Below are positions 1,185 through 15,820 of a DNA stretch of 15,820 nucleotides, piece by piece; position 1 is the first letter of the stretch, and the number at the start of each line of letters is the position of its first letter. Location of the stretch: positions 1 through 15,820 of the forward strand of contig JAHLWT010000027.1 in NCBI GenBank assembly GCA_019057775.1. Reading direction: 5' to 3'. Source of the DNA: Promethearchaeota archaeon (GTDB taxonomy: Archaea > Asgardarchaeota > Lokiarchaeia > Sigynarchaeales > SOKP01). The notes under the pieces are model-generated. The model was not told the DNA's origin. It worked only from the letters and a program-made list of their open reading frames with translations, and ran no database searches. Made by a program: the position numbers and the translations under genes.

Positions 1185-1948
1185 AATTCTGCTAATTCTT
1201 TTGGTATAGTTATTTGATATTTTGATATGTAAACCCCACCCTCTGTAATTCTTCTATTGCCATTTCCCAAATTAAACGATGATATATCAATAAATTTTAA
1301 CCATTGGTGATTTGCCTTTTCACATAAATATAAGAAAAGTCGTTTCACCTGTACTGAATTACATTTTTGCAGTAATTCCTGTACAAGTTTGGGTTTTAAA
1401 TTTACCAATCCCTCCATTAAATGATAGCACTCAACAAGGTCAAGGGTTTTGGGTGCCAGATATAGGCATTCAAACATGGCACGTTCCGGAGAAGATATTT
1501 TTATGGAGAAGTTTTTCTCTTCATGTTCTACTATGCCTAAATCCATGGGCAAAAAGGCAGTTTTTTGTTGGTTTATTGGATTACCCCAATTATAGCTCTG
1601 AAACCATTTTGGCAAATTGGTTTTAGGTGGTGAAAACAAAAATACCTTTTCCTCATTCAGCCGAAAGTAATGACTAAATCCCTGCATGGATAACGCAGTT
1701 ATTGCACCAACATACACATTGAGTTTCGCCTGGTATTGCAGAGCATAAAGGGCTCCCTGCCATTGCACCTTTTCCCCCGGTCTTTTAAAAGCCCCCCTGC
1801 CCATTGATTCCAACCAACCACTATTTCGGTAGTGTTTCTGCAAATTTCTGGATATACCAAGCTCTTCCAACCATGAAGCCAGACCAACCGTCTCCGGTTT
1901 CATGTTTTTTATTAGGGTTTTTAATTTTGTCTCATTTTGAGTAGTCAT
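1181..1948 (-). CDS. abiEi: AbiEi-type antitoxin / autorepressor
   Basis: This 255-aa protein is placed directly upstream of abiEii with a 4-nt overlap. The N-terminal ~70 residues (LKTLIKNMKPETVGLASWLEEL...GWLESMGRGAFKRPGE) form the winged-helix of AbiEi antitoxins, including the characteristic 'GWLExxGRGAF/YxRPGE' wing. The remaining ~180 residues match the AbiEi C-terminal antitoxin region (ITALSMQGFSHYFR, PERAMFECLYL). In the family this C-terminal part neutralises the toxin without stable binding, and the winged helix represses the operon by binding two inverted repeats in the promoter. Two copies of GTAGT-n3-ACTAC lie upstream, one of them centred on this start codon, in agreement with autoregulation. 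The start chosen is the ATG at 1946-1948, which is close behind a good Bacteroidota promoter box. Confidence 0.88.
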   Translation of the reverse strand: MTTQNETKLKTLIKNMKPETVGLASWLEELGISRNLQKHYRNSGWLESMGRGAFKRPGEKVQWQGALYALQYQAKLNVYVGAITALSMQGFSHYFRLNEEKVFLFSPPKTNLPKWFQSYNWGNPINQQKTAFLPMDLGIVEHEEKNFSIKISSPERAMFECLYLAPKTLDLVECYHLMEGLVNLKPKLVQELLQKCNSVQVKRLFLYLCEKANHQWLKFIDISSFNLGNGNRRITEGGVYISKYQITIPKELAEL

Positions 1949-1953
1949 ACTAC
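1941..1953. promoter_or_regulatory. Inverted repeat GTAGT-CAT-ACTAC over the abiEi start codon, candidate AbiEi operator
   Basis: A perfect 5+5 bp inverted repeat is centred on the start codon (the CAT spacer is the start ATG on the minus strand). The same arms with a different spacer occur at 2047-2059. AbiEi proteins are known to repress their operon by binding two inverted repeats. Function here is inferred from position and duplication. Confidence 0.5.
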
Positions 1954-1964
1954 CAATATTTCAG

Positions 1965-1998
1965 CAAATATAACGAATATCAATCGAATTAACTCAAT
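1965..1998 (-). promoter_or_regulatory. Candidate promoter of the abiE operon
   Basis: On the minus strand TATATTTG (1972 down to 1965) is an exact match to the Bacteroidota -7 element TAnnTTTG. An ATTG 22 nt further upstream (1998-1995) could serve as a weak -33 element (consensus TTTG, usual spacing about 19-21). Transcription would start about 10 nt before the abiEi ATG, so the operator over the start codon would lie on the initiation region. Confidence 0.45.
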
Positions 1999-2046
1999 AA
2001 AAGTACCTGTTTTTTTTAAAAATTAGTTATTATTATCCTTCTATCA

Positions 2047-2059
2047 GTAGTACAACTAC
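2047..2059. promoter_or_regulatory. Second inverted repeat GTAGT-ACA-ACTAC, candidate upstream AbiEi operator
   Basis: The arms are identical to the repeat at 1941-1953. The centres are 106 bp apart, close to ten helical turns, so both sites face the same side of the DNA. Shared flanking bases (ACTACC followed by an AATA a few bases on) make the repeat longer than the five-base arms alone. This supports cooperative binding or looping by AbiEi, by analogy with the two-repeat operator known for this family. Confidence 0.45.
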
Positions 2060-2161
2060 CCGAATAGTGGTAATTGTAACGAATAATTCAGATTTAATTT
2101 ATTCGAATAATATAAGCTGTATGAGGTTGAAGATTCATAAGAATCTAAATTCTCTTAAAAA

Positions 2162-2184
2162 AAATTTGCTCAGTGAGCAAATTT
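2162..2184. repeat. Perfect 23-bp palindromic hairpin with 11-bp arms
   Basis: The arm AAATTTGCTCA, a single central G, and the arm TGAGCAAATTT form a perfect hairpin preceded by a run of A (2157-2164). It borders the GC-rich element that follows. As RNA it could act as a bidirectional terminator-like structure; alternatively it is the edge of a REP- or MITE-like repeat. Confidence 0.6.
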
Positions 2185-2185
2185 A

Positions 2186-2270
2186 GGGCAGCGCCGTCTC
2201 CGCCAGTTGGCGGATCTGGCGGCCGATGGTAGGAGAATTTCGCTCAACGACCAGCGGGAGGTAACCCGCC
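2186..2270. repeat. GC-rich multi-hairpin element, REP-like or remnant of a mobile element
   Basis: The base composition jumps from A+T-rich to strongly G+C-rich for about 85 bases. It contains TCCGCCA-GT-TGGCGGA (2199-2214), an alternative pairing of CCGCCAG (2200-2206) with CTGGCGG (2216-2222), and GCGGG-AGGTAA-CCCGC (2254-2269). No open frame explains it. Its compact stacked hairpins and sharp composition change suggest a dispersed intergenic repeat or a transplanted piece of foreign DNA. It lies just before an integrase tail, so a recombination role is conceivable but unproven. Confidence 0.45.
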
Positions 2271-2441
2271 CAACTCCACCTTTCTTCTTCAGATGTTAAT
2301 CTTGGTCTTTTTATACCTTCTGACTTTCCAGGATAGTTAGCAAAGTTTGGTCTTTCATAGCAAACTTTATTGCTTCATTTAGCTTTTTGAATCCTACAAC
2401 ACATTTGGCCGGAAAGTCCTTTAGTGTCTCAGTAATGTTAG

Positions 2442-2672
2442 TTAACAGGAGTTAATATTGGAGTTCTGTCTAAGACTCTGGGACATTCTTCAATTCAGGT
2501 CACCCTTGATTCCTATGCTTCTGTTATGGATGAATTAATGATGAATAACGTGCGGATGATCCGAGAGAAATTAGTGGCAAAAGATGAAAGGTTTGAAATT
2601 TATGAATTGAAGAGTAATTCTGCTGTTAGCGAATTATTGAAGGATTCTATTTGTAAGGAAAATCAAAATTGA
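2442..2672 (+). pseudogene. C-terminal remnant of a tyrosine recombinase / phage-type integrase
   Basis: A frame of 76 codons ends at the TGA at 2670-2672 and is preceded by an in-frame TAG. It begins LTGVNIGVLSKTLGHSSIQV and continues TLDSYASVMDEL. This is the end of the catalytic domain of tyrosine recombinases: the LGHSSI box with its conserved His, then the active-site Tyr region (here DSY). The upstream Arg and HxxR boxes and the whole N-terminal part are absent, so the protein cannot be active. About 45 residues follow the Tyr, within the normal range. It marks an old integration event and ends 14 nt short of the stop of the convergent zinc-ribbon gene. Confidence 0.7.
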
Positions 2673-2686
2673 AAATTTATTATCTT

Positions 2687-3553
2687 TTAAATAAGAGTTT
2701 CAATCACCTTTCTTAAAACCTGAGCAGCATCTTCAAATTCTTCAAGACTGAGAGTTACTTTTTTCCCAAGTAATTTTCGGTCTTGTGGAATTAATCTTAC
2801 GTACTTATCATTGATAATTCCTTTATTATGCTTGCTTACATGTCGCTTTTGAAATACCCGCCGTAGAATTAAATATTCCTTATCGGTTAAACTCGTTATA
2901 ATATCTATTTTTAAATGAGAATTTTTGAAATGTTTTCTTGAGTCTGCTATATTTTGGAAATTAATATCTGATAATCCATGCTTTTTTGATATGCTTGAAC
3001 ATGTAAATTCGAATGTAGAAACTAAATCATCATAAGCATGCCTTAATGCACGGTGTTGATCTTTTGCTGATTGAATTTCATTTCTGATTATAGTAAGATT
3101 TGCGTCATAAATCATAATATTTTCAGTTCGGCATAAAGGGCAATAACCAAATATTCCGTAAACTTGAAAATCAGTATTACAATCTGGACAATTAATTTCT
3201 GAATCTACTTTTTGTTCCTTGATGGATCTGGTCTTAAAGGAGTCCCAATTAATTTTTGTTGAGGTGAATTTGACATCATTGCTCCCTTTAAAAACTCTTT
3301 TAAGCATCTTTTGCATTTCATCAACTACATCTTCAGTTGAAACTCTTATTGCTTCATTTTGAATATACTTTTCTTGTTCAGGAGTATACAATTCCTTCTC
3401 CTTGACTTCTGTTCCACAATATGGACAATATAATACTGCCCCAACCTTATCATCACTTATCTTGAAATATTTTCCACAGGAATTAAACGGGCATTTTTGC
3501 CCAAAGTATCCTTGATCAGTTGGAAGTGTTATTTTAAAGTATTTGGTACTCAT
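2687..3553 (-). CDS. Zinc-ribbon protein with C-terminal Rx4H (HEPN-like) motif
   Basis: This 288-aa protein is counted from the ATG at 3551-3553. A longer frame reaches 3631, but its extra 26 codons run through an inverted repeat and look non-coding. The visible order is: C21-x4-C26 with C43-x2-C46 (first zinc ribbon), a charged helical stretch, C122-x2-C125 with C138-x2-C141 (second zinc ribbon), a helical segment at about 155-190, then a C-terminal block around 223-288 containing FQKRHVSKHNKGI. R237 and H242 form an Rx4H motif like that of HEPN ribonucleases, and the helices on both sides suit that fold. There is no membrane segment. I do not recognise a named family. A plausible role is an RNA-targeting effector with metal-binding sensor domains, which would fit a defence island; this is inference from one short motif and context. 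Confidence 0.6.
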   Translation of the reverse strand: MSTKYFKITLPTDQGYFGQKCPFNSCGKYFKISDDKVGAVLYCPYCGTEVKEKELYTPEQEKYIQNEAIRVSTEDVVDEMQKMLKRVFKGSNDVKFTSTKINWDSFKTRSIKEQKVDSEINCPDCNTDFQVYGIFGYCPLCRTENIMIYDANLTIIRNEIQSAKDQHRALRHAYDDLVSTFEFTCSSISKKHGLSDINFQNIADSRKHFKNSHLKIDIITSLTDKEYLILRRVFQKRHVSKHNKGIINDKYVRLIPQDRKLLGKKVTLSLEEFEDAAQVLRKVIETLI

Positions 3554-3570
3554 AATGATTAAATTTCTCG

Positions 3571-3670
3571 CCCCCCTTGGAGTGGTTTTAAAACCATTTG
3601 GACGAACAATGATTGGGCGGCATTCCCACATTTCATGGGGGTTGTGAAAGAAAAACCACTCCTTGGGGGG
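3571..3670. repeat. Inverted repeat with 19-base arms upstream of the zinc-ribbon gene
   Basis: The left arm CCCCCCTTGGAGTGGTTTT (3571-3589) pairs with the right arm AAAACCACTCCTTGGGGGG (3652-3670) except at the two central TT positions. The left arm also contributes to the palindrome TGGTTTTAAAACCA (3583-3596). The right arm can fold alone as CCACTCC-TTGGGG-GGAGTGG (3656-3675). The arms are unusually G/C-tract-rich for this region. It could be a transposable-element remnant or a structured 5' leader of the gene at 2687-3553. Confidence 0.6.
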
Positions 3671-3742
3671 AGTGGTCGGTAATAGACCAAAGTGGAGCGT
3701 ATCAGACCATTACCCACCCCTTTTAAGTGATTATTTCACAAC
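3641..3742. repeat. Overlapping inverted repeat GTTGTGAAA ... TTTCACAAC with nested stems
   Basis: GTTGTGAAA (3641-3649) is the perfect reverse complement of TTTCACAAC (3734-3742). Inside lie the 7-bp hairpin at 3656-3675 and a second stem GGTAAT (3678-3683) with ATTACC (3709-3714), also flanked by repeated AGACCA words. The 102-bp unit has the shape of a small non-autonomous element (MITE-like) or of a folded RNA. No coding frame covers it. Confidence 0.45.
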
Positions 3743-4106
3743 ATCTTATCTCACACCCGAATTTCAATGGTACAAGAAAGTGCTACTTTTTTTCGCTTTT
3801 TTTCTAAAGAACTCTGTCCTTTTACGAAGATAACAAATTAAAGTTAAATATTGAAAAACAGAATATTGACTCCTATTTAACAGATCACTCTGGTCTGTTC
3901 ATTCTGGATTTTGATAAAAGTATTGATCATTTTTTAAACAAAACTCAAACGAAATAAGCATTGATACTAGAAAATACTTAAAAATCCATATCAATTATTA
4001 CTTTTAATACAAAATATCTTACTTTTATGGCTAAAAATGCAATAAAATAATTTAATTTCTTGTTTTTTGTTAAAAAAAAGTCTATTATTGTTTAAAAATA
4101 GCCGCC

Positions 4107-5396
4107 ATGATATCAAAACTACACATAAAAAATTTTCGGTCAATAAAAGATGAAATTGAATTAAGTTTTACACCGACATCAATAAGAGGGCTTGGGGATA
4201 ACTTGCACAGATTGACAAAAAAAGATAGACTTTTAAAAACAAATGTCATTTTTGGGCCGAATGCCTCTGGAAAAAGTAATATTTTAAGAGCAGTTAGGGC
4301 AATTGAGTTTTTGATTCATCAATCGTCAGAGTTTAAACCTGGGGATGAAATAGACCCATATGAGCCCCATGCTTTAGACACAAGAACCGCAGAAGAGCCT
4401 GTTTCCCTGGGCATTGAATTTTTTGCTTCGAATAAAATTAAATATGAGTTCCAATTTACATTTTGTTCAAAAAAGATACGTAACGAATCATTATTTTACT
4501 ATCCAAAAGGACAGAAAACACTGCTCTATAAAAGAGAAGAAAAAAATCCTATCAAATTCGGAGAGTCATATAGAGGAGGTCAAAAAATAATTGAAAAACA
4601 ATTACTTGAGAATCAATTATTCTTCTCCAAAGCTGCTTTGAACAATGCAGAATCTGTTCTTGTGCCCTTTCAATTCCTCCTGGAATCTGTAAGAACATAT
4701 CCATTCCTTGGAACATATACAGATAGCAGATTAAGTAGATTATATGCGAAACGTATAGCTGAAGAAAAAAAAACATCTTTTGCTAAAAAATTCAACATGC
4801 TCATCTGTGCTTTTGATACTGGAATTCATAAAATAATCTCAGAGGAGGTTGATTACGAATTCCCGGATAATATACCTAAAGAAATAAAGGCTAATTTCAA
4901 AGAAGAATTTAAATATGATATACAATCGTTCCATAAAGTTTTTGAAGATGAGAAAGAAGTTAAGATTATCCCATTTGATATTGAAGATGAATCAGTTGGG
5001 ACACAAAGATTATTGGTAATAGGTGGATTAATAATTGATGCACTTGAGAATGGTTCTGTTCTTGTTGTAGATGAATTTGAAAAAAACCTTCATCCCGAAA
5101 TAACTCAATACTTAATCAAGTTATTTCATAACCCTATTACAAATCCTCATAATGCACAATTGCTCTTTGCCACTCACGATTTAACTCAATTAGATAGTGA
5201 TATATTTAGAAGAGACCAGGCATGGTTTACAGAGAAGGATGAATTTGGCGTTACGTCCTTATATAGATGCTCTGATTTTAAAGGCCTTAAGCTAAATACC
5301 CCTTTAGCCAAATGGTATAAAAGTGGAAGATTTGGGGCTACACCAATAATTAGTGACCTGAACTTTTTATTAGAAATGCAACAAGATGCCAAGTGA
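4107..5396 (+). CDS. AAA15/OLD-like ATPase, RloA / AbiLi type
   Basis: This 429-aa soluble protein carries an ABC/SMC-type ATPase split over the chain. The N-terminus MISKLHIKNFRSIKDEIELSF is the usual opening strand of this family. Walker A GPNASGKSN is at 50-58, a degenerate signature ESVGTQRL at 295-302, Walker B VLVVDEFEKNLHP at 318-330 (D322, E323), and the switch His in ATHD at 355-358. The C-terminal YKSGRFGATP is typical of RloA-like proteins. Such ATPases pair with an RloB/AbiLii Toprim-type nuclease partner and provide abortive phage defence. The next gene, overlapping by 11 nt, is exactly such a partner but truncated. The intact motifs suggest this protein still folds and hydrolyses ATP, although without a full RloB the pair is likely inactive unless a partner is supplied elsewhere. 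Confidence 0.85.
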   Translation: MISKLHIKNFRSIKDEIELSFTPTSIRGLGDNLHRLTKKDRLLKTNVIFGPNASGKSNILRAVRAIEFLIHQSSEFKPGDEIDPYEPHALDTRTAEEPVSLGIEFFASNKIKYEFQFTFCSKKIRNESLFYYPKGQKTLLYKREEKNPIKFGESYRGGQKIIEKQLLENQLFFSKAALNNAESVLVPFQFLLESVRTYPFLGTYTDSRLSRLYAKRIAEEKKTSFAKKFNMLICAFDTGIHKIISEEVDYEFPDNIPKEIKANFKEEFKYDIQSFHKVFEDEKEVKIIPFDIEDESVGTQRLLVIGGLIIDALENGSVLVVDEFEKNLHPEITQYLIKLFHNPITNPHNAQLLFATHDLTQLDSDIFRRDQAWFTEKDEFGVTSLYRCSDFKGLKLNTPLAKWYKSGRFGATPIISDLNFLLEMQQDAK

Positions 5397-5631
5397 AGTA
5401 TATAAAAGAATATTGATACTTTGTGAAGGACAGACAGATTTGCAATATGCAAAAGCTCTAAAACAAACTTTACCTCGCCAGGTTCAAAGAAATATTAAGA
5501 TTGATATCGATTCATATAGAAAAAAAGACCCATTAAATCTAGCGAAAGAAGCAAGGCGAAGAAAACAAAAGGCTAGAACTGAGAAAAATGCTTATGATCA
5601 GCTGCATAAAAAGTATAATCCTCATGTTTAA
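5386..5631 (+). pseudogene. Truncated RloB-like (Toprim-fold) partner of the ATPase
   Basis: An 81-codon frame overlaps the ATPase stop by 11 nt. The start, YKRILILCEGQTDLQYAKAL, is the first strand and catalytic Glu loop (EGxT[DE]) of RloB/Toprim proteins, and DPLNLAKEA follows in the usual place. Family members are around 200 aa. They continue after a 'xxYDxxW' segment into a DRD-type metal-binding strand and an SxPxFE box. Here the frame reaches KNAYDQLHKKYNPHV and stops, so those parts are absent and no continuation was seen in other frames. The break falls about 140 bases before the five-gene operon, which suggests that the insertion or rearrangement bringing in that operon removed the 3' half. 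It is called a pseudogene from the missing catalytic acids. Confidence 0.7.
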
Positions 5632-5682
5632 AATATTATGTCATCTACTTTAAAACAGCATCTATCAATAAGTTCACATTGT

Positions 5683-5712
5683 TTTGGAATATTAATAATT
5701 ATAATACTTTTT
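5683..5712 (+). promoter_or_regulatory. Candidate promoter of the five-gene operon
   Basis: TTTG at 5683-5686 and TACTTTTT at 5705-5712 resemble the Bacteroidota -33 (TTTG) and -7 (TAnnTTTG, last base differs) elements, with an 18-nt gap close to the usual 19-21. Start would be near 5718, before the operator palindrome. Two tandem copies of TTATATTTAA (5727-5746) each hold another -7-like TATATTTA without a good -33, so the exact promoter is uncertain. Confidence 0.3.
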
Positions 5713-5745
5713 CATATGAAATAATATTATATTTAATTATATTTA

Positions 5746-5764
5746 ATTATTGTATTACAATAAT
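5746..5764. promoter_or_regulatory. Perfect 19-bp palindrome before the HTH gene, candidate operator
   Basis: ATTATTGTA-T-TACAATAAT is a perfect inverted repeat with 9-bp arms and one central base. It lies 7 nt before the ATG of the Cro/C1-type regulator and so covers or adjoins its ribosome-binding region. The operators of small Cro/C1 and restriction-modification controller proteins have this size and position. A pair of 10-bp direct repeats (TTATATTTAA, 5727-5746) adjoins it. Autoregulation of the operon is the natural reading; it is inferred, not shown. Confidence 0.55.
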
Positions 5765-5771
5765 CAGGAAT

Positions 5772-5969
5772 ATGATTAAAGAAATTCTAAAGGAACAAGG
5801 TAGAACTCAAGCTTGGCTTGCAGAAAGAATTGGAAAAAGTTATGTGATTGTAACTAACTATTGTAATAACAAAACACAACCAAGTCTTGAAGTACTTAAA
5901 ACTGTCGCCGATACACTAAACGTTGATATACGTGAATTACTCATACCAACAAAGAAAGTAAACTTATGA
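5772..5969 (+). CDS. Small Cro/C1-type (XRE) transcriptional regulator, controller-like
   Basis: This 65-aa protein consists almost only of a lambda-repressor-like helix-turn-helix: MIKEILKEQGRTQAWLAERI (helices 1-2), GKSYVIVTNYCNN (recognition helix), PSLEVLKTVADTLNVDIREL (helices 4-5). The start at 5772 was chosen because the 31 codons before it in the longer frame are hydrophobic, A+T-driven and run through the promoter and palindrome. An AGGAAT-like sequence sits just upstream. Its TGA overlaps the ATG of the methyltransferase (ATGA, 5966-5969). Size, position in front of a DNA methyltransferase and the palindrome at 5746-5764 suggest a role like that of restriction-modification controller (C) proteins, which delay expression of the nuclease until the host DNA is methylated. 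Confidence 0.85.
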   Translation: MIKEILKEQGRTQAWLAERIGKSYVIVTNYCNNKTQPSLEVLKTVADTLNVDIRELLIPTKKVNL

Positions 5970-7231
5970 ATTTCATTGATAATAAAATCGGTTCGGCAAT
6001 AGATAATCTAAAGAGTCCAATACATAATTGGTATAAATTTACTGCTGGCTTCTCACATAAATTTGTTGATGAAATAATTTATCATGAAAATCTAAAAACG
6101 AAAAAAAAATCAGTAATATTCGACCCTTTTGCCGGATGCGGTACTACGTTAGTTTCAGCTCAAAAAGAGGGAGTAAGAGCAATTGGAAATGAAGCTCATG
6201 CCTTTATGTATGATATTATTAGAGCGAAAATAAATTGGAAAATAAATCCAGCAATTATTAAATCACATATCCACGAAATCGAGAATTTAATATCCAATAA
6301 TTTAAGTAAAATTGACATCGACAGTATTGCACATCCTTTGATGGTTACTCTCTATGACCCTGAAAAATTAAAATTACTATATTTAATAAGAGACTATATA
6401 TCTAGTATTGAGAACATAAAGTATCATCTTTTTCTAAAATTAGCCTTAAGCCAGACTCTTCACAAAGTCGCTCTTCATCCTATTGTTCCATATATATCAA
6501 GAAAGCGAACTATTAATTCTGACGAACCAGTATGGCAAGTATTCTCAAATTTATGTCATCAAATGTATAATGATACCCTCCTATTCAGTACCAATCAAAA
6601 AACATCAAAAATTTACAAGCACGATTCTCGCAAAACTAATAGATATATATCAGATAATTCTTGCAACATTAGCATCACATCTCCTCCGTATTTAAATAAT
6701 TTAGATTATGGTGAAGTTTCTAAAGTACACACTCACTTTTTTGAGATAACTTCAAATTGGAATGACATTACAGAGAGAGTTAGAAAAAAATTAGTTACCG
6801 GTTCGACTACACATTACTCAATTTCAAAATTCAACCTTAATTCTTTTTTATCTAAAGAATTCTCAATTGTAAACAGAGAAATCTTACCTGAGATTTTAAG
6901 TAAGTCACAAGAGATTAGAGAGATTTCCAAAAATAGAGCAGGCAAGAAGAGTTTTGACATTCTAATTTTACACTACTTTAATGATATGTTTCAAGTATTA
7001 AAGGAGATAAGAAGAATAATTAGACCTGGAGGAGCATTATATATGATTTTGGGTGATAGCGCTCCTTATGGAGTATATATTCAAACAACAGAGATACTAG
7101 GAAAAATTGCCACAAGAATTGGATTCAATAGTTATGAAATTCAAAAAATTAGAACTAGGGGCACTAAATGGAAAAATCTTAAATACAGACATAACCAACC
7201 ATTAGCAGAGAATGTCTTAATATTAAAATGA
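5966..7231 (+). CDS. DNA methyltransferase (SPPY type, probable N4-cytosine or N6-adenine)
   Basis: This 421-aa protein begins with a conserved-looking leader (KSPIHNWYKFTAGFSHKFVDEII). The S-adenosylmethionine-binding motif I DPFAGCGTT is at 53-61, followed by IGNEAHAF. Catalytic motif IV TSPPY is at 238-242, continuing YLNNLDYGEVSKVH and then TERVRKKLVTGSTT (269-282). A late strand RPGGALYMILGDS is at 353-365. An SPPY box favours N4-methylcytosine, but adenine cannot be excluded. Motif I precedes motif IV with about 175 residues between them, unlike the common beta-class N4/N6 enzymes in which the order is reversed. The spacer, and the roughly 50 residues after the TERVR block, are candidates for target recognition. 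It is coupled to the regulator before it and the 335-aa gene after it by 4-nt overlaps. I infer that it marks self DNA for the operon. Confidence 0.85.
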   Translation: MNFIDNKIGSAIDNLKSPIHNWYKFTAGFSHKFVDEIIYHENLKTKKKSVIFDPFAGCGTTLVSAQKEGVRAIGNEAHAFMYDIIRAKINWKINPAIIKSHIHEIENLISNNLSKIDIDSIAHPLMVTLYDPEKLKLLYLIRDYISSIENIKYHLFLKLALSQTLHKVALHPIVPYISRKRTINSDEPVWQVFSNLCHQMYNDTLLFSTNQKTSKIYKHDSRKTNRYISDNSCNISITSPPYLNNLDYGEVSKVHTHFFEITSNWNDITERVRKKLVTGSTTHYSISKFNLNSFLSKEFSIVNREILPEILSKSQEIREISKNRAGKKSFDILILHYFNDMFQVLKEIRRIIRPGGALYMILGDSAPYGVYIQTTEILGKIATRIGFNSYEIQKIRTRGTKWKNLKYRHNQPLAENVLILK

Positions 7232-8235
7232 CAACGATATTAGAGCTATGTAAATCTGAAAGAATTAAGTTGCCTTATTTAAGTTTAACTGAGTTTAGAA
7301 ATAAATTTGACAAGGGTTGGAGTTATTTCTATGTTTATTATTTTAGAGAAATCCGAGACATTTATCTCGCTGTAAGAGAATTTGGATATTCAAGTTTGAA
7401 GAGTTTTACTAATACTGTAATTAATGTATTAAAAATTCGGCCAGTGGATACGGAATGGGATACTGATGGTCGCCGAATTCTGGAACATATTAATGCATTA
7501 ATTTCATTAGGACTTTTGAATAAAAAATATGAGATAGTTAACCGTCAAGCATTCCTCAATTCCACAATTGGAGACGATTTATCATTACAAGATAAACAAG
7601 ATTTTAAATTTTACTTTTTTCGATATTACAGGTTCAAAGAAATTTTGTCTTGGTTTATTAATCCATTCGACCCAGACAGAGAAACATTAATTGATAACCT
7701 TTCTGAGGAATCTATAAAGAAAAATTCCAATGTGCTTTATACATATTCAAAATATAGTAGGTTCTCAGATTCATTCATATTTGAATTAGAAAACAATACT
7801 CCAATATATTATATTGACAGAGAGAATGAAGATTTTATGAGGTTTTGGGATGTCTTCCTAGCATGGACTAAAGAGCTTGGGCTAATTGAGAAATTTAATC
7901 TTAAAAATCTAGATTATAGGATTTCTGATACACATAAGTCACTAACTTGTGTTTACTTTATTAATAGTGATATACCTAGGATTAACTTACTTGAATTTAT
8001 CAAAACAAATTATAAATCTAAATACATAAATGTCCCAAAACTAGTGTTTAAATTATGTGTCCGTTACCGCTTGCCAATTGATATGTCTAAGACCATAATT
8101 GTCTCTCAATGCAAGGAATCAAGTGATAAAATAAGTATGCAACGTACCTCTGAGGTTTTCATTAGGGATAAAACAGAGCTTGATTTTGTGCCAATAGTAA
8201 AGAATTCATACATCTCACACTTAATGATATTATAA
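7228..8235 (+). CDS. Unknown 335-aa protein of the five-gene operon, winged-helix-like segments
   Basis: I do not recognise the family. The protein is soluble, rich in aromatic and charged residues, with no signal peptide, membrane segment, metal site or catalytic motif that I can see. Residues about 45-110 (IYLAVREFGYSSLKSFTNTV ... RRILEHINALISLGLLNKKYEIVN) resemble a winged helix, and 203-235 (FWDVFLAWTKELGLIEKFNL) may be the start of a second. Its start overlaps the methyltransferase stop (ATGA, 7228-7231) and its stop overlaps the ATPase start (TAATG, 8233-8237), so it is probably made in fixed ratio with both. A role as a DNA-binding adaptor or specificity subunit between methyltransferase and ATPase would fit, but that is a guess from position and the helical segments. 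Confidence 0.75.
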   Translation: MTTILELCKSERIKLPYLSLTEFRNKFDKGWSYFYVYYFREIRDIYLAVREFGYSSLKSFTNTVINVLKIRPVDTEWDTDGRRILEHINALISLGLLNKKYEIVNRQAFLNSTIGDDLSLQDKQDFKFYFFRYYRFKEILSWFINPFDPDRETLIDNLSEESIKKNSNVLYTYSKYSRFSDSFIFELENNTPIYYIDRENEDFMRFWDVFLAWTKELGLIEKFNLKNLDYRISDTHKSLTCVYFINSDIPRINLLEFIKTNYKSKYINVPKLVFKLCVRYRLPIDMSKTIIVSQCKESSDKISMQRTSEVFIRDKTELDFVPIVKNSYISHLMIL

Positions 8236-9563
8236 TGGAAGTAGATAGAAAATTATTAGACCTCTTAAAAAATAAGGAAATAGCCACCCTAGATAATTTG
8301 AATTATAAAAAGCTAGGACTGAATTTTAATCCATTTCCAAAAGCGGGAATTTCTGACATAAACAGTAGTGACTTCATTAATAGCAACTTTAGTCCAGTTG
8401 ATGAAGATGTTGAGCAAGCGATTAATGAATTTATCATTGATTCATTATTTCCAAAAAATCCCTATTCCAAAGATAAATATATCAGTGCAGTAATCCGGGG
8501 CGATTATGGCTATGGAAAGACTCAGACTCTAATGTATATTAAATTCCTTCTTGAATCTTTTAAAGAAGCAAAAGAATATCGTAAGAGTCCATATGTTATT
8601 TATATTGACAATCCTGGTGCAAAATTGACAGAGTTAATTGGTACTATTATTTATAAAATTGGGGAAGAAAATTTCAAAAAATACCTTTGGAACATTGTCA
8701 TTGTCTCCATTCGAAAAAACGAAGATTATAAAACTCAGCTTCTTGATTATATCCCAGGTGGGTATTCCTTGTTCAGCACTGAAAAATATGACCCCTTCTC
8801 TACTGAGAATACAATTAATTACAAGAAATTTATTGATGGTTGGTATCAATTCTTTCAAAAAGATACAAGAAAGAAAAAGAGATTTCAGGATAATTTGAAG
8901 GAAATAATTATTTCTCTTTTTACAGCTAAGTTTCAAAATACGACTGTTGCAATTTATTTCTATGAGCTTCTCTCAGAGAATATTGGGATTAATAAAACTT
9001 GGGAATTGTTAACAACAGGTGATGCAAAAAATCTTGAAAAAAAAGAAGTATACATAATTAGGGCAATTGTCGATTTGATTCACGAACAAGGATTTACTGA
9101 TTTCCATATTTTGGTTGATGAATTTGAAGCTGTTACCACCGGTAGACTATCAAAATCTGAGATAGATAGATATGTGGCAAATTTAAGGGCATTAATAGAT
9201 AAGGAAAGAAATTGGTGTGCGGCATTTTCAATGACAGGATTGGCATTGTCAAGTCTTAAGAGGGTATCACCCCCTCTTGCGGACAGAATAACAAGTAAGG
9301 TTATAGACCTAAAGCCGCTTAATAAGACTAGCTCTAATAAATTATTATTAAATTATTTAAATCTCGCTAGAGAGAAATCAGACTCAATTTTCCCTTTTGA
9401 TGAATCTGGTGTCGATGAACTGTTGACTCTTTCAAATAACATACATAGAATTTTCCTTAAATCTTGTTTCCATTTAATCCAGAGAGCTAATGAGAATCTT
9501 AAAAGTGAGGAAACTATTAACTCTGAATTTGTTACGAAATTTTTTCAAATCGAAGAAGAATAA
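8235..9563 (+). CDS. P-loop AAA-type ATPase of the five-gene operon (ORC/ExeA-like)
   Basis: This 442-aa protein opens with LGLNFNPFPKAG (27-38), like the GLxxNPF leader of ExeA-, TniB- and ORC-like ATPases. Walker A GDYGYGKT is at 89-96, a strand YVIYIDN at 120-126, an unusually long insert at about 130-285, Walker B ILVDEFEAV at 292-300 (D295, E296), a sensor-like strand AAFSMTG at 329-335, and PPLADRI (346-352) whose Arg could be the arginine finger. A helical C-terminal domain (about 360-430) resembles a lid. The Walker A and B style also recalls the BREX BrxC/BrxD ATPases, but the protein is much shorter than BrxC. Likely role: ATP-dependent loading on DNA or switching that activates the PIN nuclease gene product next to it, 10 nt downstream. 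Confidence 0.82.
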   Translation: MEVDRKLLDLLKNKEIATLDNLNYKKLGLNFNPFPKAGISDINSSDFINSNFSPVDEDVEQAINEFIIDSLFPKNPYSKDKYISAVIRGDYGYGKTQTLMYIKFLLESFKEAKEYRKSPYVIYIDNPGAKLTELIGTIIYKIGEENFKKYLWNIVIVSIRKNEDYKTQLLDYIPGGYSLFSTEKYDPFSTENTINYKKFIDGWYQFFQKDTRKKKRFQDNLKEIIISLFTAKFQNTTVAIYFYELLSENIGINKTWELLTTGDAKNLEKKEVYIIRAIVDLIHEQGFTDFHILVDEFEAVTTGRLSKSEIDRYVANLRALIDKERNWCAAFSMTGLALSSLKRVSPPLADRITSKVIDLKPLNKTSSNKLLLNYLNLAREKSDSIFPFDESGVDELLTLSNNIHRIFLKSCFHLIQRANENLKSEETINSEFVTKFFQIEEE

Positions 9564-9573
9564 AAGGACAACA

Positions 9574-10653
9574 ATGGAGAGTTGGAGTGACGAGCCGTAT
9601 AGACAATTTAAAATCAAGATTTTTCTTGATACAAATATTTTAACATGTATTGTCGATAAAACTCATGATGGATTATCGAAATCTATAGATATTTTAAAAT
9701 CTTTAGAATTCGTAGATTTAGTGAGTTCAACATTTGTTGCCTTTGAATTTGCGGGTATTCGTAAAAGAGAACATTTCTTACGACAAGTTATTCTGAAATC
9801 AGCGTCAAGCTCTTCCGGTCACTTTAATTATAGTTCAATATTTCAAATTAGAAATAATTTCCAATCAGAAGATGTTAAGTTTGAAGATATACAACCTGAT
9901 ATCCAAAAATCAGTTGAAGATGAAATTGAAGATATAATCAACTCATATGAAATTAATTATTCCAATAATATATTTCATAAAGAACTTTATAAGCCAACAT
10001 TAGATATTTGTCTAAATTCAAGAGTATCCAAAGAAGATAGCTTTGTGTTAATTTCAGCAATACTCCCACAACCAGGTAGCCCTGAAAAGAATGTAACTAT
10101 TTTAACTAAGGATAAGGATTTTATCAAATCATATTATGAATTTCCTTTGGATTCGATATTTAGCAAGTATGGATTAACTGAACCTAATATATTAGATATT
10201 AGAAATATAAAATTATCTAGTGGTAGAAATATTAATCTATTGCAAAATATAATAATCAACTTGACTAAATTTTGGAAAGATAAAATATTGGAACTAATCC
10301 AAATGTATAACAAAGATAAATTCCTTGGTTTAACATTCACACCAAAAGGTGCAACCTTCCCGAAGGATGTAATTTGCTTCACTTTGCCGTCAAATACTCA
10401 ACTCAATAGTAATATTTATGTTTCAATTATCGGCCATAACCTTGATTTTATCTATACCACAAAGTTCAGAGTAGAAGATTTTTGGAATAATGGTTCAATT
10501 GGCACTTATCCTTTTATAAGTCAAAAAGATGCCTACATATCTTTTAAGATTTTTGAATTTGACGATGGCGCTCAGTCCACTCCATTACCAATATCACAAA
10601 TAAATAAATTAAGAGAAAATGGTAATCTTGTTTTCATCCATGATGATTCGTAA
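9574..10653 (+). CDS. PIN-domain nuclease with extra C-terminal beta-rich domain
   Basis: This 359-aa protein is counted from the ATG at 9574, which follows AAAAGGACA and the ATPase stop by 10 nt. A longer frame from 9490 would overlap the ATPase by 74 nt and adds only basic, non-homologous-looking residues. The N-terminal ~190 residues carry the PIN signature: FLDTNIL with D19, E58 in FVAFEFAGI, D155 in SKEDSFVLISA, and D180/D182 in ILTKDKDF. All four acidic positions needed for a two-metal nuclease are present. An insert at about 75-145 lengthens the usual 130-aa domain. From about 225 on a strand-rich domain follows (LGLTFTPKGATF, ICFTL, IYVSIIGHNL, AYISFKIFEF) of unknown role. PIN enzymes cut RNA or single-stranded DNA. 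No small antitoxin gene accompanies it, so control probably lies with the ATPase and methylation. Confidence 0.82.
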   Translation: MESWSDEPYRQFKIKIFLDTNILTCIVDKTHDGLSKSIDILKSLEFVDLVSSTFVAFEFAGIRKREHFLRQVILKSASSSSGHFNYSSIFQIRNNFQSEDVKFEDIQPDIQKSVEDEIEDIINSYEINYSNNIFHKELYKPTLDICLNSRVSKEDSFVLISAILPQPGSPEKNVTILTKDKDFIKSYYEFPLDSIFSKYGLTEPNILDIRNIKLSSGRNINLLQNIIINLTKFWKDKILELIQMYNKDKFLGLTFTPKGATFPKDVICFTLPSNTQLNSNIYVSIIGHNLDFIYTTKFRVEDFWNNGSIGTYPFISQKDAYISFKIFEFDDGAQSTPLPISQINKLRENGNLVFIHDDS

Positions 10654-10674
10654 ATATTACTCTATTTAATTTTT

Positions 10675-10878
10675 TACCAAAAGGACAACCAACTTAGATA
10701 CCTTAAACACTATACTGGATTGAATTTGAGCTTGCAAATTTCTCCAGAAAAGGCAATCGATGTTATTAAAGATATACAACAATTAACATATCAATTACCA
10801 TTATCTAAAGAAATAAAATCGAAAATTCTCAATCTAAATGAGAATCAGGAAAAATTACTAAAAATTGCCAAATCCTAA
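10675..10878 (+). pseudogene. C-terminal remnant of a transposase (IS4/IS1634-like)
   Basis: The frame is open from the PIN stop to the TAA at 10876-10878 and becomes protein-like at about 10675. It reads RYLKHYTGLNLSLQISPEKA and then AIDVIKDIQQLTYQLPLSKE, ending with LNENQEKLLKIAKS. The 'isPekai-x-ii-x-l-...-LP-x-s...iL-L-x-x-xQ-x-x-Ll' pattern is, from memory, the tail of Bacteroidota IS1634-type transposases. No start codon or DDE residues are present, so it is an inactive scar. A 7-bp hairpin ATTCTCA/TGAGAAT lies inside it. The element borders the five-gene operon on the right, in line with transfer by insertion sequences or homologous recombination at them. Confidence 0.5.
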
Positions 10879-11238
10879 AATTGGGTCATGCGTTGCACAA
10901 AACAGGAGATGAGCCCTAATCCAAAAGATAGATTACTCAATATAATTATTTTCTTAACAATAAGGCAGTTGTTCAGTCATTAACAATAGATCAATGAATA
11001 CAATGATTTCTTTTTGGAAACTTTCAAATATTGGTGGAGTAGAAGAGATACTTTTTTTGCAGCAAGTCTGACTTCTAAATCATTTTTTATTTCATTGATT
11101 TTATTTAAATGTACATAATAAGGTATTTCCTTAAACCTGAATGGATTAATTCTTTTTAGCTTAAATTTAAAAACTTCATTATGAACTGCAATATATTCAT
11201 CCAACAGGTCATTAACATCTTAGCCAAGTAAAAAAATA
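10879..11238. other. 360-base stretch of decayed sequence, with a weak minus-strand open frame
   Basis: After the transposase tail no clear gene follows. On the minus strand a frame of about 79 codons (open from 11219 to the stop at 10980-10982) has no ATG, only a TTG at 11202-11204, and begins right after an in-frame stop. Its protein (LDEYIAVHNEVFKFKLKRIN..., ending in a Lys- and Leu-rich segment) has plausible composition but matches nothing I recognise. It may be the tail of a gene cut off when the island was rearranged. I would not count it as an intact gene. Confidence 0.35.
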
Positions 11239-11523
11239 TTATAAAGAAATTAGAACTGTCCCAATCAAATAAAATATAATTATGAGATAAGTACTAACCT
11301 TTTCCCAAGTAAGAGATTCACTCAAAGATTTGGGACGAATATTATCTCTGCAAAAAAGATTTGCAAAAGTTGCAGAAATAAAGAAACCTCCTCCAATTAA
11401 GTCCATTGAGACAACCTTATTAGAATTTTTTCTCAATAAAATAATCAGTGCAAAAACACTTATGGTTACAATTAAATATATGCTTATCGCTTTAATAACT
11501 GGGTTAATTTTTTGTTTCTTCAT
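11239..11523 (-). CDS. Small three-segment membrane protein coupled to hsdS
   Basis: This 94-aa protein has three hydrophobic segments: about 10-30 (IKAISIYLIVTISVFALIILL), 38-58 (around DLIGGGFFISATFANLFC) and 77-94 (TYLIIIFYLIGTVLISL). The N-terminus MKKQKINP is positive, so it probably starts in the cytoplasm. Its ATG overlaps the hsdS stop (ATGA at 11520-11523), the same coupling as between hsdM and hsdS, so it is read as the fourth gene of the type I restriction operon. Membrane proteins are not standard components of type I systems. It may be an associated accessory (for example a membrane anchor or an abortive-infection pore), or a gene that happens to follow. The family is not recognised. 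Confidence 0.6.
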   Translation of the reverse strand: MKKQKINPVIKAISIYLIVTISVFALIILLRKNSNKVVSMDLIGGGFFISATFANLFCRDNIRPKSLSESLTWEKVSTYLIIIFYLIGTVLISL

Positions 11524-12674
11524 CTTTTATCGGTATAAATATATTTCTCCCCCTTAAACGCCCCCTGCAACAAACTCTGAAATAGTTCCTCACTCTTTTG
11601 AAGGCTTTGTTGGGTGAGTTGTTTTTGTTGTTCGATACTATCTATAATTGATGCAAATCTATTTTGCATCTCAACTGGCGTTTTCGGTACTTTCACAGCG
11701 TAAAGATCATCTTTTGAGATATTAATAAATGTACTGCCATCACTTGTTTTTTGAAAAATATTATACATAGCTTTCAACAGTAGAAAAATATACTTGTTGG
11801 TAACACTACTCTTGCTTCTTATTGCAGCTAGCCCCCTTCCAATACAATACTTCTTGTCTGCAAAATTCATTCGGCCGGCAGTGGCTCCCCTGACACAAAA
11901 TAGAATGTCATCTGGTTTACATAACTTTCTTGGTTCAGTTGTCCATTGTTTCTCTGTCGGATTATTCTCCCCAAACTCTGTTGGCCCATTTAAAAGTGGT
12001 GTTCCTTGTCCTGTAACGTTATAAGATTCACCCTTGGGTGATTGCCCCATAATTATTTCACATAGTTCCCCTAATTCAATAATTATCCATCCCTTGGAAT
12101 TAAGATAAGGATCCCCAAACATCTCCAAAAACACACTCTGGGCGAGTTGGTCGTATTTTTCAAGGATCTTTTTGTCGTTGCGGCGTAACTCATCAGCCTT
12201 GTCCAATATAGTCGCGATCTTTTTCTGGGTTTCAAGGGGAGGAAGGGGAATTTCTATCCCTTCAATTTCAGATAGCCTAATACTTGGATATGATTCATCA
12301 ACAATTAGCCTTGATGGCCCAAACCATTGAAAAAAGTACTTTAAGAAAAGTGGTGAAAATCTACCGGATGGCAGAATAGCAGCCAAATGGCTAACAATGT
12401 AGGCGGGGGTTGTGGTTTGAAATACTCTATTCTTCATTGCACTCATACCACTTTTTGCAAAAAGGATTGTGTCAGCAGGCATTAGCTTTAATTTTAACCT
12501 TTTAGCAGTTTCATGATCAACTTTAGGCAAGATAGATTCTGATTCTCCTTTTAATAAATTCTCAAGATGTCCCGCCCTAATAAAAGGATAACCCGAGATC
12601 CCAAAATCTGCATCTCTAGGAGCAGCTTGTCCAGTAGCCACTTTGGCAATTTCTGATAGGTTAATAAACCTCAT
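11520..12674 (-). CDS. hsdS: Type I restriction-modification specificity subunit
   Basis: This 384-aa protein has the classical two-target-domain plan. The first target recognition domain runs about 1-145, followed by the conserved helical spacer with IPLPPLETQKKIATILDKAD and LRRNDKKILEKYDQLAQSVF (about 146-188). The second target domain is about 195-345 (GWIIIELGELCEIIMGQSPK opens it), and a closing conserved region has EMQNRFASIIDSIEQQKQL and SEELFQSLLQGAF. The two target domains differ, so the recognised DNA site is bipartite and asymmetric; the bases cannot be read from sequence. It starts inside the hsdM stop (ATGA, 12671-12674). Length is slightly below the common 400-450 aa but all segments are present. 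No inverted second hsdS copy or invertase was seen, so no sign of phase variation. Confidence 0.93.
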   Translation of the reverse strand: MRFINLSEIAKVATGQAAPRDADFGISGYPFIRAGHLENLLKGESESILPKVDHETAKRLKLKLMPADTILFAKSGMSAMKNRVFQTTTPAYIVSHLAAILPSGRFSPLFLKYFFQWFGPSRLIVDESYPSIRLSEIEGIEIPLPPLETQKKIATILDKADELRRNDKKILEKYDQLAQSVFLEMFGDPYLNSKGWIIIELGELCEIIMGQSPKGESYNVTGQGTPLLNGPTEFGENNPTEKQWTTEPRKLCKPDDILFCVRGATAGRMNFADKKYCIGRGLAAIRSKSSVTNKYIFLLLKAMYNIFQKTSDGSTFINISKDDLYAVKVPKTPVEMQNRFASIIDSIEQQKQLTQQSLQKSEELFQSLLQGAFKGEKYIYTDKR

Positions 12675-14245
12675 TTGATTAATTTCTCTAATTCATTTAG
12701 TAAAGCTATTCTCTGATCAATTAGCATTCTAATACCTGGCTCTCCCTCCTTTCCATTTATTATTTCATTCGGATTATCATATTCAATCTCCTCATATACA
12801 ATCTCCTTGTATCTATTAATGCTCAGATCATACCCGTTATCCTTTATCTCATCCACAGGAACAAAGAAGTGCTTTGCTTTCCGGTCATCCTCCTTCACCT
12901 TTTCTCTTACGGTCCAACTCTTCAGAATATCCGGAATATCGTTCCTGTCAATCTTATCCCGTTTATCATCCAATGAGTAACCATCGGCCTCCATATCATA
13001 AAACCACACTTTTTCTGTCTGACCGCCCTTAACAAATATCAATACAGCAGTACTCACTCCTGCATAAGGTTTGAATACACCACTTGGCATAGAGACAACT
13101 CCTTGCAGCTCACATTCGTCTATCAGCAGTTCCCGGGCTTGTTTGTGGGCTTTACTGGATCCAAATAATACTCCATCAGGCACAATCACCGCAGCACGTC
13201 CACCCATCTTCAGGGAATTGAAAATCCGGTTTATAAATAAAAGTTCTGTTTTGGTTGTACTCAACCTGAATCCTTCATTAATATCCCCCTTATCAATACT
13301 ACCTTTAAAAGGCGGATTGGCAAGGCTCACATCGTATTTATTATCCTCATTGTATTTCTTGCTCAAAGTATCCACCAGGTCAATATTGGGTTGGGAAATT
13401 CCATGTAACATCAGGTTCATCAATCCAACCCGAACCATTGTATTGTCAAAATCATAACCAAAGAAGGTTTTTTCCTTTAGCTGAATCCATAATTTCTCAT
13501 TTGTCAGCTTATCCCCAAAAGTTCCTTTAACGAATCCATTCTCATCTGTAAATCGCCTACCCTCTGAAGTGTACTGTGTTAATATATGCTGATAAGCCCC
13601 CAATAAAAAGCCACCGGTTCCACAGGCAGGATCACAAACAATTTCTCCTAACCTTGGATTCACCATTTCCACCATCATCTGGATGATATGCCTTGGGGTT
13701 CTGAACTGACCATTCTTCCCTGCAGTAGCAATCTCAGATAGAAGAAGTTCATACATGTCTCCCTGTGTGTCCTGAAAGGTTTGACCTGACTCACTTTCCT
13801 TCTCTATTTCCAGATAAATATTGTCTATCAAATTTATGGATTCAACAAGCAATGAAGGCTTAGGTATAATAAATACAGCATCCCTCATATGCCTGCCAAA
13901 AGCAGACTCACCGCCGTTTAATTGCTTTATAAAAGGGAAAACTTTGCTTTGAACATGCGCCAACATCTCTCCTCCTTCCATCTGCTTGAAATGACTCCAC
14001 CTAAGAGTTTCTTTATCCACATCTTCATTTAAATTTGGGACTTGAAAGGGTCCTTCAAAGACGGATTGATATTTCTCTCCGGAGAACTCAGCCTTTTTGA
14101 TATTATTCAGATCAACCTCGTCAAGTCGACGCATAAATAAAAGATAGCTGATTTGCTCAATAGCTGTTAAAGGATTACTGATTCCCCCGCTCCAGAATTT
14201 ATCCCAGAGTTTTTTTATTTCTGATTTAATTTTTGATGATAACAT
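12671..14245 (-). CDS. hsdM: Type I restriction-modification DNA methyltransferase subunit
   Basis: This 524-aa protein has the N-terminal helical HsdM_N domain (KSEIKKLWDKFWSGGISNPL and TAIEQISYLLFMRRLDE) and an N6-adenine methyltransferase core: motif I DPACGTGGFLLGAY at 205-218 and catalytic NPPF at 310-313. GQFRTPRHIIQMM (179-191) is the characteristic HsdM lead-in. Length is typical. Together with HsdS it forms the methylase (usually M2S) that protects host DNA at the target site, and with HsdR the restriction complex. The start lies 3 nt after the hsdR stop, and the stop overlaps hsdS by 4 nt. Everything points to an intact enzyme. Confidence 0.95.
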   Translation of the reverse strand: MLSSKIKSEIKKLWDKFWSGGISNPLTAIEQISYLLFMRRLDEVDLNNIKKAEFSGEKYQSVFEGPFQVPNLNEDVDKETLRWSHFKQMEGGEMLAHVQSKVFPFIKQLNGGESAFGRHMRDAVFIIPKPSLLVESINLIDNIYLEIEKESESGQTFQDTQGDMYELLLSEIATAGKNGQFRTPRHIIQMMVEMVNPRLGEIVCDPACGTGGFLLGAYQHILTQYTSEGRRFTDENGFVKGTFGDKLTNEKLWIQLKEKTFFGYDFDNTMVRVGLMNLMLHGISQPNIDLVDTLSKKYNEDNKYDVSLANPPFKGSIDKGDINEGFRLSTTKTELLFINRIFNSLKMGGRAAVIVPDGVLFGSSKAHKQARELLIDECELQGVVSMPSGVFKPYAGVSTAVLIFVKGGQTEKVWFYDMEADGYSLDDKRDKIDRNDIPDILKSWTVREKVKEDDRKAKHFFVPVDEIKDNGYDLSINRYKEIVYEEIEYDNPNEIINGKEGEPGIRMLIDQRIALLNELEKLIK

Positions 14246-14248
14246 ATT

Positions 14249-15820
14249 CTATGCAACTAAATGTTTAGCAAACTTCATTATTTCTCTAATTTCCCCCGGC
14301 TTAAATACCCCAATAATTCCATCAGGGTCGATCCTGGTAAAAGGTTCCTTGACAAGATCTTTTTTATCAATGGCACCTTTTCTCAAGATGAATGTTTGCA
14401 AGGTTAAAATAAACTGTATTTGTTGTTCACTGTATGTGTTGTGCTCTGCAATGAAAGAGGCAAATGCTTCCGATACTTCTTCTGTGAATGATTTTAATTG
14501 TTCCTGTCCAAGCATATGCTTGATGAATTGAATGAATTTTGCCCGTTTGTTGTCATAAACCTTTTGTAATAATTCTTCAGTAACCCAGGGATCACGGCTC
14601 TCAAGAATATTTGCCAACTGTTCAACCTCCTGTTCCGTTATCTCCCGGCCCAACTGTAATTTCTGAAGTACAAAGTTCGAACTCACCATTTCATTAACAA
14701 TAGCTTCAACTTTATCCCTATATTTTTTCACCGTCATTCGTTCATGTTCCGGACCAAACTCTACGTGTTTTTTCTCTGCCACCTCATCGCGGATATCCAA
14801 TTTCTCTTCACCAGGCTTTTCTTCTCCTTTATACCTCATTAAAGGTCCCAAACGGGTAACAAGTTCTTCCAAATCATTATATGTAAATCTGTGCCACCAG
14901 CTTGGTTGCAAAACAGTTTCAATATACTCCTTCTCTTTTCTTACAATATTGATGGACATTGGTAACTCATCAATCTGTTCGATAACAGCATCCCTGATAG
15001 TCTCGTATTTCTCAAGCTCCTTCCTCAGGTGAGCAGTAGCCATATCAACCAAATTAATTTCAAAACGCATTGATTTAAAATCACCCTGCGATTTAGCACG
15101 CATTACCGGAGCTATCACTTTGCGTAAATCATCTATCTTCTCTTCGGAAATAAATTTCCAATAGTCTTCTTCTATTACAGGAGCAAGATCTGAATGAGCT
15201 TCCAAAACAATAACTGAATTTTGTGGCAGTTCTGCAATCTCGTCTCTTAAATGCCGAATAACACTATTCTTAACATCAATATTATTGGCTTCCATAGAAG
15301 CGGATAATTCGTCCAGCCTGGCTTCAAACAAGCGTACAGGTAAAGCTTTTTGTCCCTTAGCTTCTTTACCCTTGGGTATTTCCTTAAAATATTCAAAGTT
15401 CTCCCACATATCTATAATAAGAAACCTGTCTTTTTCCAGGCACCATGGTTTCAATTTGTCTTCATTCAGCACTCTTGTGCCACGACCAATCATTTGCCAG
15501 AACTTGGTATAAGAATACACCGGTTTAGCAAACACCAGGTTGACAATTTCAAGTATGTCAATTCCGGTATCAAGCATATCTACACTTACAGCAATACGTG
15601 GCATATCTGTAGTCTTGAATTTATCGAGCAATCCGCCTTTGCCATAGACACCTTTTATACCGGAAATCAAAACCTCCGCAATTTGTCCTTTGTATTCAGG
15701 GAAAAGCCGGTCAAAGGTTTCAACCAATCTGTAAGCATGTTTCTTGCTTATGGCAAAAAAGATAGTTTTGCCCGGCAAAACCCCATCAGGGCTTTTTATA
15801 CACTCCTCCATAAATTCACG
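14249..15820 (-). CDS. hsdR: Type I restriction subunit, C-terminal part (EcoEI-like), cut by the window edge
   Basis: The last 523 codons are visible; the frame is still open at the right edge (three more codons before the ATG at 15809-15811), so that ATG is internal. The fragment begins in the second RecA-like helicase domain: KTIFFAISKKHAYRLVETF, the RIAVSVDMLDTGIDI strand and motif V, then FWQMIGRGTRVL as motif VI. After it comes the long helical C-terminal domain found in EcoEI-type R subunits, which contacts the methylase (WWHRFTYNDLEELVTRLGPL is part of it). The N-terminal nuclease domain and Walker A/B lie beyond the window. HsdR translocates DNA and cuts at collision sites when the target is unmethylated. 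No disruption is visible. Confidence 0.93.
   Translation of the reverse strand, partial: REFMEECIKSPDGVLPGKTIFFAISKKHAYRLVETFDRLFPEYKGQIAEVLISGIKGVYGKGGLLDKFKTTDMPRIAVSVDMLDTGIDILEIVNLVFAKPVYSYTKFWQMIGRGTRVLNEDKLKPWCLEKDRFLIIDMWENFEYFKEIPKGKEAKGQKALPVRLFEARLDELSASMEANNIDVKNSVIRHLRDEIAELPQNSVIVLEAHSDLAPVIEEDYWKFISEEKIDDLRKVIAPVMRAKSQGDFKSMRFEINLVDMATAHLRKELEKYETIRDAVIEQIDELPMSINIVRKEKEYIETVLQPSWWHRFTYNDLEELVTRLGPLMRYKGEEKPGEEKLDIRDEVAEKKHVEFGPEHERMTVKKYRDKVEAIVNEMVSSNFVLQKLQLGREITEQEVEQLANILESRDPWVTEELLQKVYDNKRAKFIQFIKHMLGQEQLKSFTEEVSEAFASFIAEHNTYSEQQIQFILTLQTFILRKGAIDKKDLVKEPFTRIDPDGIIGVFKPGEIREIMKFAKHLVA

Follow-up and report, generated by a model that had tools for sequence, protein, structure and literature searches.

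A conserved four-gene set joining a DNA methyltransferase to a PIN nuclease, a candidate modification-gated defense system

BrxD of the BREX defense systems is an ORC-Cdc6 AAA+ ATPase, and the available sections of the same source set a class of FokI/SspB-type folds beside BrxA/DUF4007 and list PIN among the backup endoRNases (PMC12839542). In the Ssp system, as described in the available part of PMC10853773, the triple-winged-helix SspB and the ORC/Cdc6 protein SspC replace the modification partners DndE and DndD. Against this background, we have analyzed a 15,820-nucleotide stretch from a Promethearchaeota archaeon (GenBank assembly GCA_019057775.1, contig JAHLWT010000027.1, positions 1 to 15,820; hereafter the window), in which four consecutive genes encode a DNA methyltransferase (MT), a 335-residue protein (U335) that is likely a DNA reader, a BrxD-like ATPase and a PIN-domain nuclease (PIN). 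This four-gene set is unnamed in the sources that we searched and would share the methylation-gated logic of BREX, of the BREX-related BR systems and of Ssp. We hold it somewhat likelier than even that the set is a horizontally moving, modification-gated system against invaders, with a presumptive role in defense. The genes and the element preceding them are as follows:

5746..5764: perfect 9-bp inverted repeat, weak and AT-rich, candidate operator for the helix-turn-helix (HTH) regulator
5772..5969, + strand: HTH regulator of XRE type, 65 residues, ATG start (Pfam HTH_3, E 1.4e-13)
5966..7231, + strand: MT, SPPY-type amino-DNA methyltransferase, 421 residues
7228..8235, + strand: U335, likely multi-winged-helix DNA reader with a FokI/SspB-like fold, unnamed family
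8235..9563, + strand: BrxD-like ORC/Cdc6 AAA+ ATPase (assigned at the level of the family)
9574..10653, + strand: PIN, with a VapC-like nuclease domain (residues 14-223) and a C-terminal beta-barrel (residues 247-358)

A first-pass annotation of the window had described five genes on one strand with tight junctions and intact key motifs, and our coordinates agree with it: HTH and MT overlap in an ATGA at 5966, MT and U335 in an ATGA at 7228, U335 and the ATPase meet in a TAATG at 8233, and the ATPase stop codon (TAA, 9561-9563) is followed by 10 nt before the PIN ATG at 9574. DPFAGCGTT and TSPPY in MT, GDYGYGKT and LVDEFE in the ATPase, and D19, E58, D155 and D180 in PIN were all verified.

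The likeness to BREX would lie in the DNA methyltransferase, in the ORC/Cdc6-type AAA+ ATPase with its family-level similarity to BrxD, and in the probable FokI/SspB-like multi-HTH protein, which may be comparable to BrxA as the latter appears in the available text (PMC12839542). Unlike BREX types 1-6, however, the set comprises four genes without PglZ, BrxC, BrxB, BrxL or a helicase, its nuclease is a PIN protein, and its methyltransferase seems nearer to type II models than to PglX/BrxX. PglZ found no match in the five window proteins; the family was matched in 24 of the 25 genomes that host the loci described below, in 29 places, none of which could be placed within the loci (up to 8 kb each side), since the match lay outside by coordinates or the locus held no frame of that length, a test that a frame cut at the locus end could escape. 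Nor was a helicase found among the four conserved genes, in the window or in the 25 loci. With the DUF499-centered BREX-related systems (BR, Hma) the set shares a compact combination of methyltransferase, ORC/Cdc6-like ATPase and nuclease, but its reader is a gene product of its own and its nuclease is of the PIN type; it lacks a helicase-nuclease gene and is without a DUF499 match (none among 30 members of the ATPase family at E<=0.01). As in Ssp, a likely multi-winged-helix reader stands alongside a probable ORC/Cdc6 ATPase; the set, in contrast, would use methylation where Ssp uses phosphorothioation, and none of the 10 window proteins that were searched matched SspD, the phosphoadenosine phosphosulfate (PAPS) reductase, or SspE. 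The parts suit the logic of BREX, BR and Ssp, but features that define each of them are missing (PglZ in the loci, DUF499, the helicase and PAPS reductase).

Two further comparisons concern single components. The methylation-associated MADS system (mad1-mad8) is resembled through mad8 alone, which matched 9 of 30 ATPase relatives (best E 1.8e-6), but MADS has eight genes where the set has four, and the mad models gave no match for U335 or PIN, mad3 matching only the neighboring AbiLi-like ATPase at 4107-5396. A PIN nuclease is required for defense in DS-3 and DS-5 (DefensePredictor), whereas neither a methyltransferase nor an AAA+ ATPase partner is described for them in the available portion of that source (PMC13092281). 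We also looked for a match of the whole set to an already named system: no PADLOC or NCBIfam system model fits the gene set, and the literature searched gave no description of four genes that combine a methyltransferase and a reader of this kind with a BrxD-like ATPase and a PIN protein, although subscription papers, bioRxiv preprints or supplements could hold one.

Co-occurrence of the genes in the same order across unrelated genomes had been chosen beforehand as the test of the proposed system. We scanned one genome per species from 84,980 species, seeding with the ATPase alignment alone and confining the scan to contigs with two peptide patterns; 402 stretches gave 26 that were confirmed and, from these, 25 loci, which are 19 distinct ones by U335 at 90% identity (by record titles 23 Bacteroidota, one Balneolaceae and one Acidobacteria). 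When profiles and queries were run on all open frames, the order U335-ATPase-PIN and its strand were kept in 25/25 loci, in one of them (L025) in pieces, and MT lies immediately 5' of this trio in 24 of the 25, the exception being locus L021. Neighboring genes overlap or are at most 18 bases apart in 24/25 loci, the exception here being L025, while the flanks vary among loci, save for two groups of near-copies and a few common conjugation genes. Since all 25 ATPase relatives keep the U335-ATPase-PIN order, we reject chance adjacency.

Scattered homologues without a fixed neighborhood were likewise rejected, in that surveys covering 395 Bacteroides-phylum genomes and 247 from the phylum of the Acidobacteria locus, which scored in each genome just a few top candidates from a first look, gave no stand-alone copies of U335. 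The protein was found in 4/395 and 1/247 genomes, respectively; all five were already in the scan, and they therefore add no new evidence of spread. Strong MT matches (at least 690 bits) fell in exactly the 4 of 395 genomes with U335, and PIN matched in nine, four of them strongly and in the same genomes, the other five at 20-24 bits, which we treat as chance or distant PINs. Strong PIN, strong MT and U335 thus fall in the same four genomes, and none of the three was seen there by itself. At E<=1e-10, relatives of MT occurred in 31/395 genomes, and all but the four strong ones score at most 137 bits. The best of these weak relatives (L071:7512-10986, 137 bits) has different gene neighbors: by eye, the distant MT is followed by SIR2-like and DUF262-like genes, perhaps another methyltransferase-coupled defense set.

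Pairwise distances among the four proteins correlate strongly (Mantel r 0.86-0.97, 0/2000 permutations; 22 sequences, from 21 loci and the window, leaving out L025 with its broken frames, the near-copies L010 and L011, and L021). These correlations point to joint inheritance and do not by themselves indicate a complex; PIN distances are most tightly coupled to those of the ATPase (r 0.967) and U335 (r 0.964), a covariation that would fit a physical complex.

The first-pass annotation had included the HTH gene in a five-gene system. The four genes after it did prove to be a conserved unit, but the HTH was rejected as a core part: a similar one (phmmer E<=0.01) precedes MT in just one of the 25 loci (L023), for which reason we count the system as four genes, dissimilar HTHs not having been checked at every locus. 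Since it overlaps MT in an ATGA and the inverted repeat at 5746-5764, possibly its operator, ends 7 nt ahead of its start, the HTH may regulate this copy, and in our model it would be an optional local regulator.

MT is the best conserved of the four proteins (mean identity 0.58 vs. 0.33-0.43), with motif I (FxGCGTT) and SPPY invariant in all 19 rows of its alignment (18 loci and the window). In PADLOC it matches MTase_II best (E 3.5e-51), and the PglX model was not seen among the best 25 of 50 PADLOC matches; among PDB sequences there were three weak amino-methyltransferases (~6e-4 to 9.6e-4) and one further match within 1e-3. The SPPY motif commonly accompanies N4-cytosine methylation, and judged by this motif the product of MT is likely N4-cytosine. 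In L021 (Cytophagales), which lacks the usual MT, the slot at L021:3452-4843 is taken by a 463-residue protein that combines HEAT repeats with an N6_N4 methyltransferase domain. In this domain the motifs come in reversed order, SPPY (216) and then DPFGGSGT (404), and the gene overlaps the start of U335. As an unrelated methyltransferase fills the MT slot, base methylation seems to be what is retained; this single case of non-orthologous replacement indicates that methylation itself is the required function of the slot.

U335 had been seen earlier as a winged-HTH-like protein of 335 residues. That description was of the right kind, and we can narrow it. The protein had no match in Pfam, PADLOC, NCBIfam or PHROG families, while its predicted structure (high confidence) is that of a multi-winged-helix protein, best matched in Foldseek listings by the DNA-binding region of FokI, with SspB fourth (moderate scores). 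From this model we surmise that U335 is likely a multi-winged-helix DNA reader of the FokI/SspB type. Among 35 members of its family (of 64 database matches to the U335 query), nine Pfam families were reached at E<=0.1, each in a single member, three of them winged-helix families (best E 0.011), and one PADLOC family, PglX (E 0.019), in one member. No relative of U335, the ATPase or PIN was found among PDB sequences at E<=1e-3, and comparison of the U335 profile with one of DUF4007 (5 sequences) gave a probability of 2.7%. At loci L031, L033, L034 and L035 a DUF4007 gene overlaps, by sequence, the start of a P-loop frame of at least ~500 residues, which would be the same reader-then-ATPase layout as that of U335 and its ATPase.

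For the ATPase, 30 relatives were aligned from the 120 listed among 432 database matches; all 30 keep Walker A, Walker B and three arginines without change. At E<=0.01, PADLOC BrxD is matched by 29 of them (best E 1.1e-9) and Pfam BrxC_BrxD by 26. The window member is weak against BrxD (PADLOC E 0.02; NCBIfam 11.9 bits vs. a cut-off of 350), and it is by the family matches that we assign the ATPase as BrxD-like, of the ORC/Cdc6 AAA+ class.

Given the Ssp precedent, in which SspB and SspC take the places of DndE and DndD (available part of PMC10853773), U335 and the ATPase could belong to the modification machinery, with PIN as an independent downstream effector. This we consider very improbable. 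PIN covaries most closely with precisely these two proteins, U335 and the ATPase remain in L021 beside a different methyltransferase, and an SPPY methyltransferase in ordinary restriction-modification works without such helpers. In addition, L025 keeps MT and U335 whole while the ATPase is broken: within L025:8001-10394 the frame of the ATPase is split into three pieces and that of PIN into two, a pattern as would be expected when the destructive arm is lost first, with sequencing or assembly error as a possible source.

PIN has a VapC-type fold followed by the C-terminal beta-barrel, and D19, E58, D155 and D180 are identical in 38/38 rows of its alignment (37 distinct sequences of the 120 listed among 223 matches to the PIN profile, P0236 having entered twice). 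PIN_8 and PIN_12 were each reached by one of the 38 members at E<=0.01. The gene lies within 18 bases of the ATPase gene in 24/25 loci. We postulate that PIN acts by abortive infection, probably as an RNase. In the mechanism that we propose, MT would methylate host DNA as a mark of self, presumably at N4-cytosine, and U335 would serve as the DNA-reading subunit, loaded on DNA by the BrxD-like ORC/Cdc6 ATPase, which would also power scanning. On meeting an unmarked or replicating foreign target, the putative complex of U335 and ATPase would release or activate PIN, which would most likely cut RNA, DNA being possible, and so halt the infected cell. The specific form in which the set is a restriction-modification-like system with an RNase as its cutting arm, the methylation state of DNA switching the PIN ribonuclease on, we put a little short of an even chance. 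If so, methylation would be read by a winged-helix protein resembling FokI and seated on an ORC/Cdc6 AAA+ motor, and unmarked DNA would lead to shutdown of translation, not cleavage of DNA, by a PIN domain joined to a translation-factor-like barrel.

The same modification-gated complex might instead have PIN cut the invading DNA, as direct ATP-dependent restriction. The set does read as a restriction-modification parts list (methyltransferase, likely DNA reader, ATPase, nuclease), and a FokI-like reader ordinarily brings a DNA nuclease; we nevertheless find this form somewhat unlikely. Modification-gated defense by this set would condense the methylate-scan-destroy logic known from BREX and Ssp into few genes, with PIN as the sole nuclease, and would offer a function for two unnamed families, that of U335 and that of PIN. 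With four genes in ~4.7 kb, the set should be easy to clone, so that the coupling of DNA marks to the effector is directly testable.

The set can adjoin conjugation genes and is apparently mobile, moving horizontally. A 17,206-bp segment that carries it is 100% identical between loci named Aequorivita (a metagenome-assembled genome) and Membranihabitans; the Zunongwangia copy has 98.4% identity. A TraG/VirD4-type conjugation gene precedes the system (searched in L009, and in the others by similarity); contamination of one assembly could possibly underlie the identical segment. The three copies are loci L009, L010 and L011, from three differently named genera. The ATPase had no relatives in viral contigs, plasmids or phages, U335 none in plasmids or viral contigs (phage records were not searched), and PIN none in viral contigs (phage records and plasmids were not searched), and hence, at the sensitivity of these searches, plasmids and phages do not commonly carry the set.

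This mobility bears on a different reading, in which the set is an addiction module of a mobile element: MT, U335 and the ATPase would hold back a PIN toxin, loss of the module would kill, and phage defense would be secondary. The shared segment with its TraG/VirD4-type gene would suit such a module, as would the HTH regulator at the window locus and the VapC-like PIN, which gives a likeness to VapBC. Unlike VapBC, PIN bears a C-terminal barrel and lacks an antitoxin-like neighbor among frames of at least 50 residues, and no small gene (at least 50 residues, common to at least three unrelated loci) lies 3' of PIN in the 25 loci. A methyltransferase, a reader and an AAA+ ATPase are moreover expensive for simple addiction, and the window and several of its relatives adjoin defense genes, all of which makes an addiction module improbable. 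Among the relatives, some of which adjoin AbiE or an ABC-type ATPase, L013 has AbiEi/AbiEii directly upstream, and homologues of the pair occupy this position in L014, L015 and L022; in L020 an AAA_15/DUF2813-type ATPase accompanies the set, together with a DUF3226 gene. Of further flank proteins, 4/10 hand-picked ones match PADLOC at E<=1e-8, a figure without a background control.

The other features of the window are listed below:

264-1948: AbiEii/AbiEi
2687-3631: zinc-ribbon-like protein matching PDC-M14A, a PADLOC candidate family (E 1.8e-15)
4107-5396: AbiLi/RloA-like ATPase (AbiLi E 8.9e-83; mad3 E 1.7e-10)
5386-5631: rloB fragment, 81 residues
10693-10875: end of a 61-residue open frame
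11520-15820, opposite strand: hsdS/hsdM/hsdR-like Type I genes, named by reading of the sequence

With AbiEi/AbiEii, PDC-M14A, the AbiLi/RloA-like ATPase and the Type I restriction-modification-like genes, the window looks like a defense island, as had been noted from the start. The truncated rloB described there was also borne out, its 81 residues covering positions 1-68 of the 195 in the RloB profile, under the Pfam cut-off. The transposase tail placed at about 10693-10875 was unconfirmed, its sole PHROG match (E 0.0013) being the uncharacterized family 17782, with no transposase-directed search made. In base composition, the four core genes have a G+C content of 29-31% vs. 39% for the Type I genes of the window.

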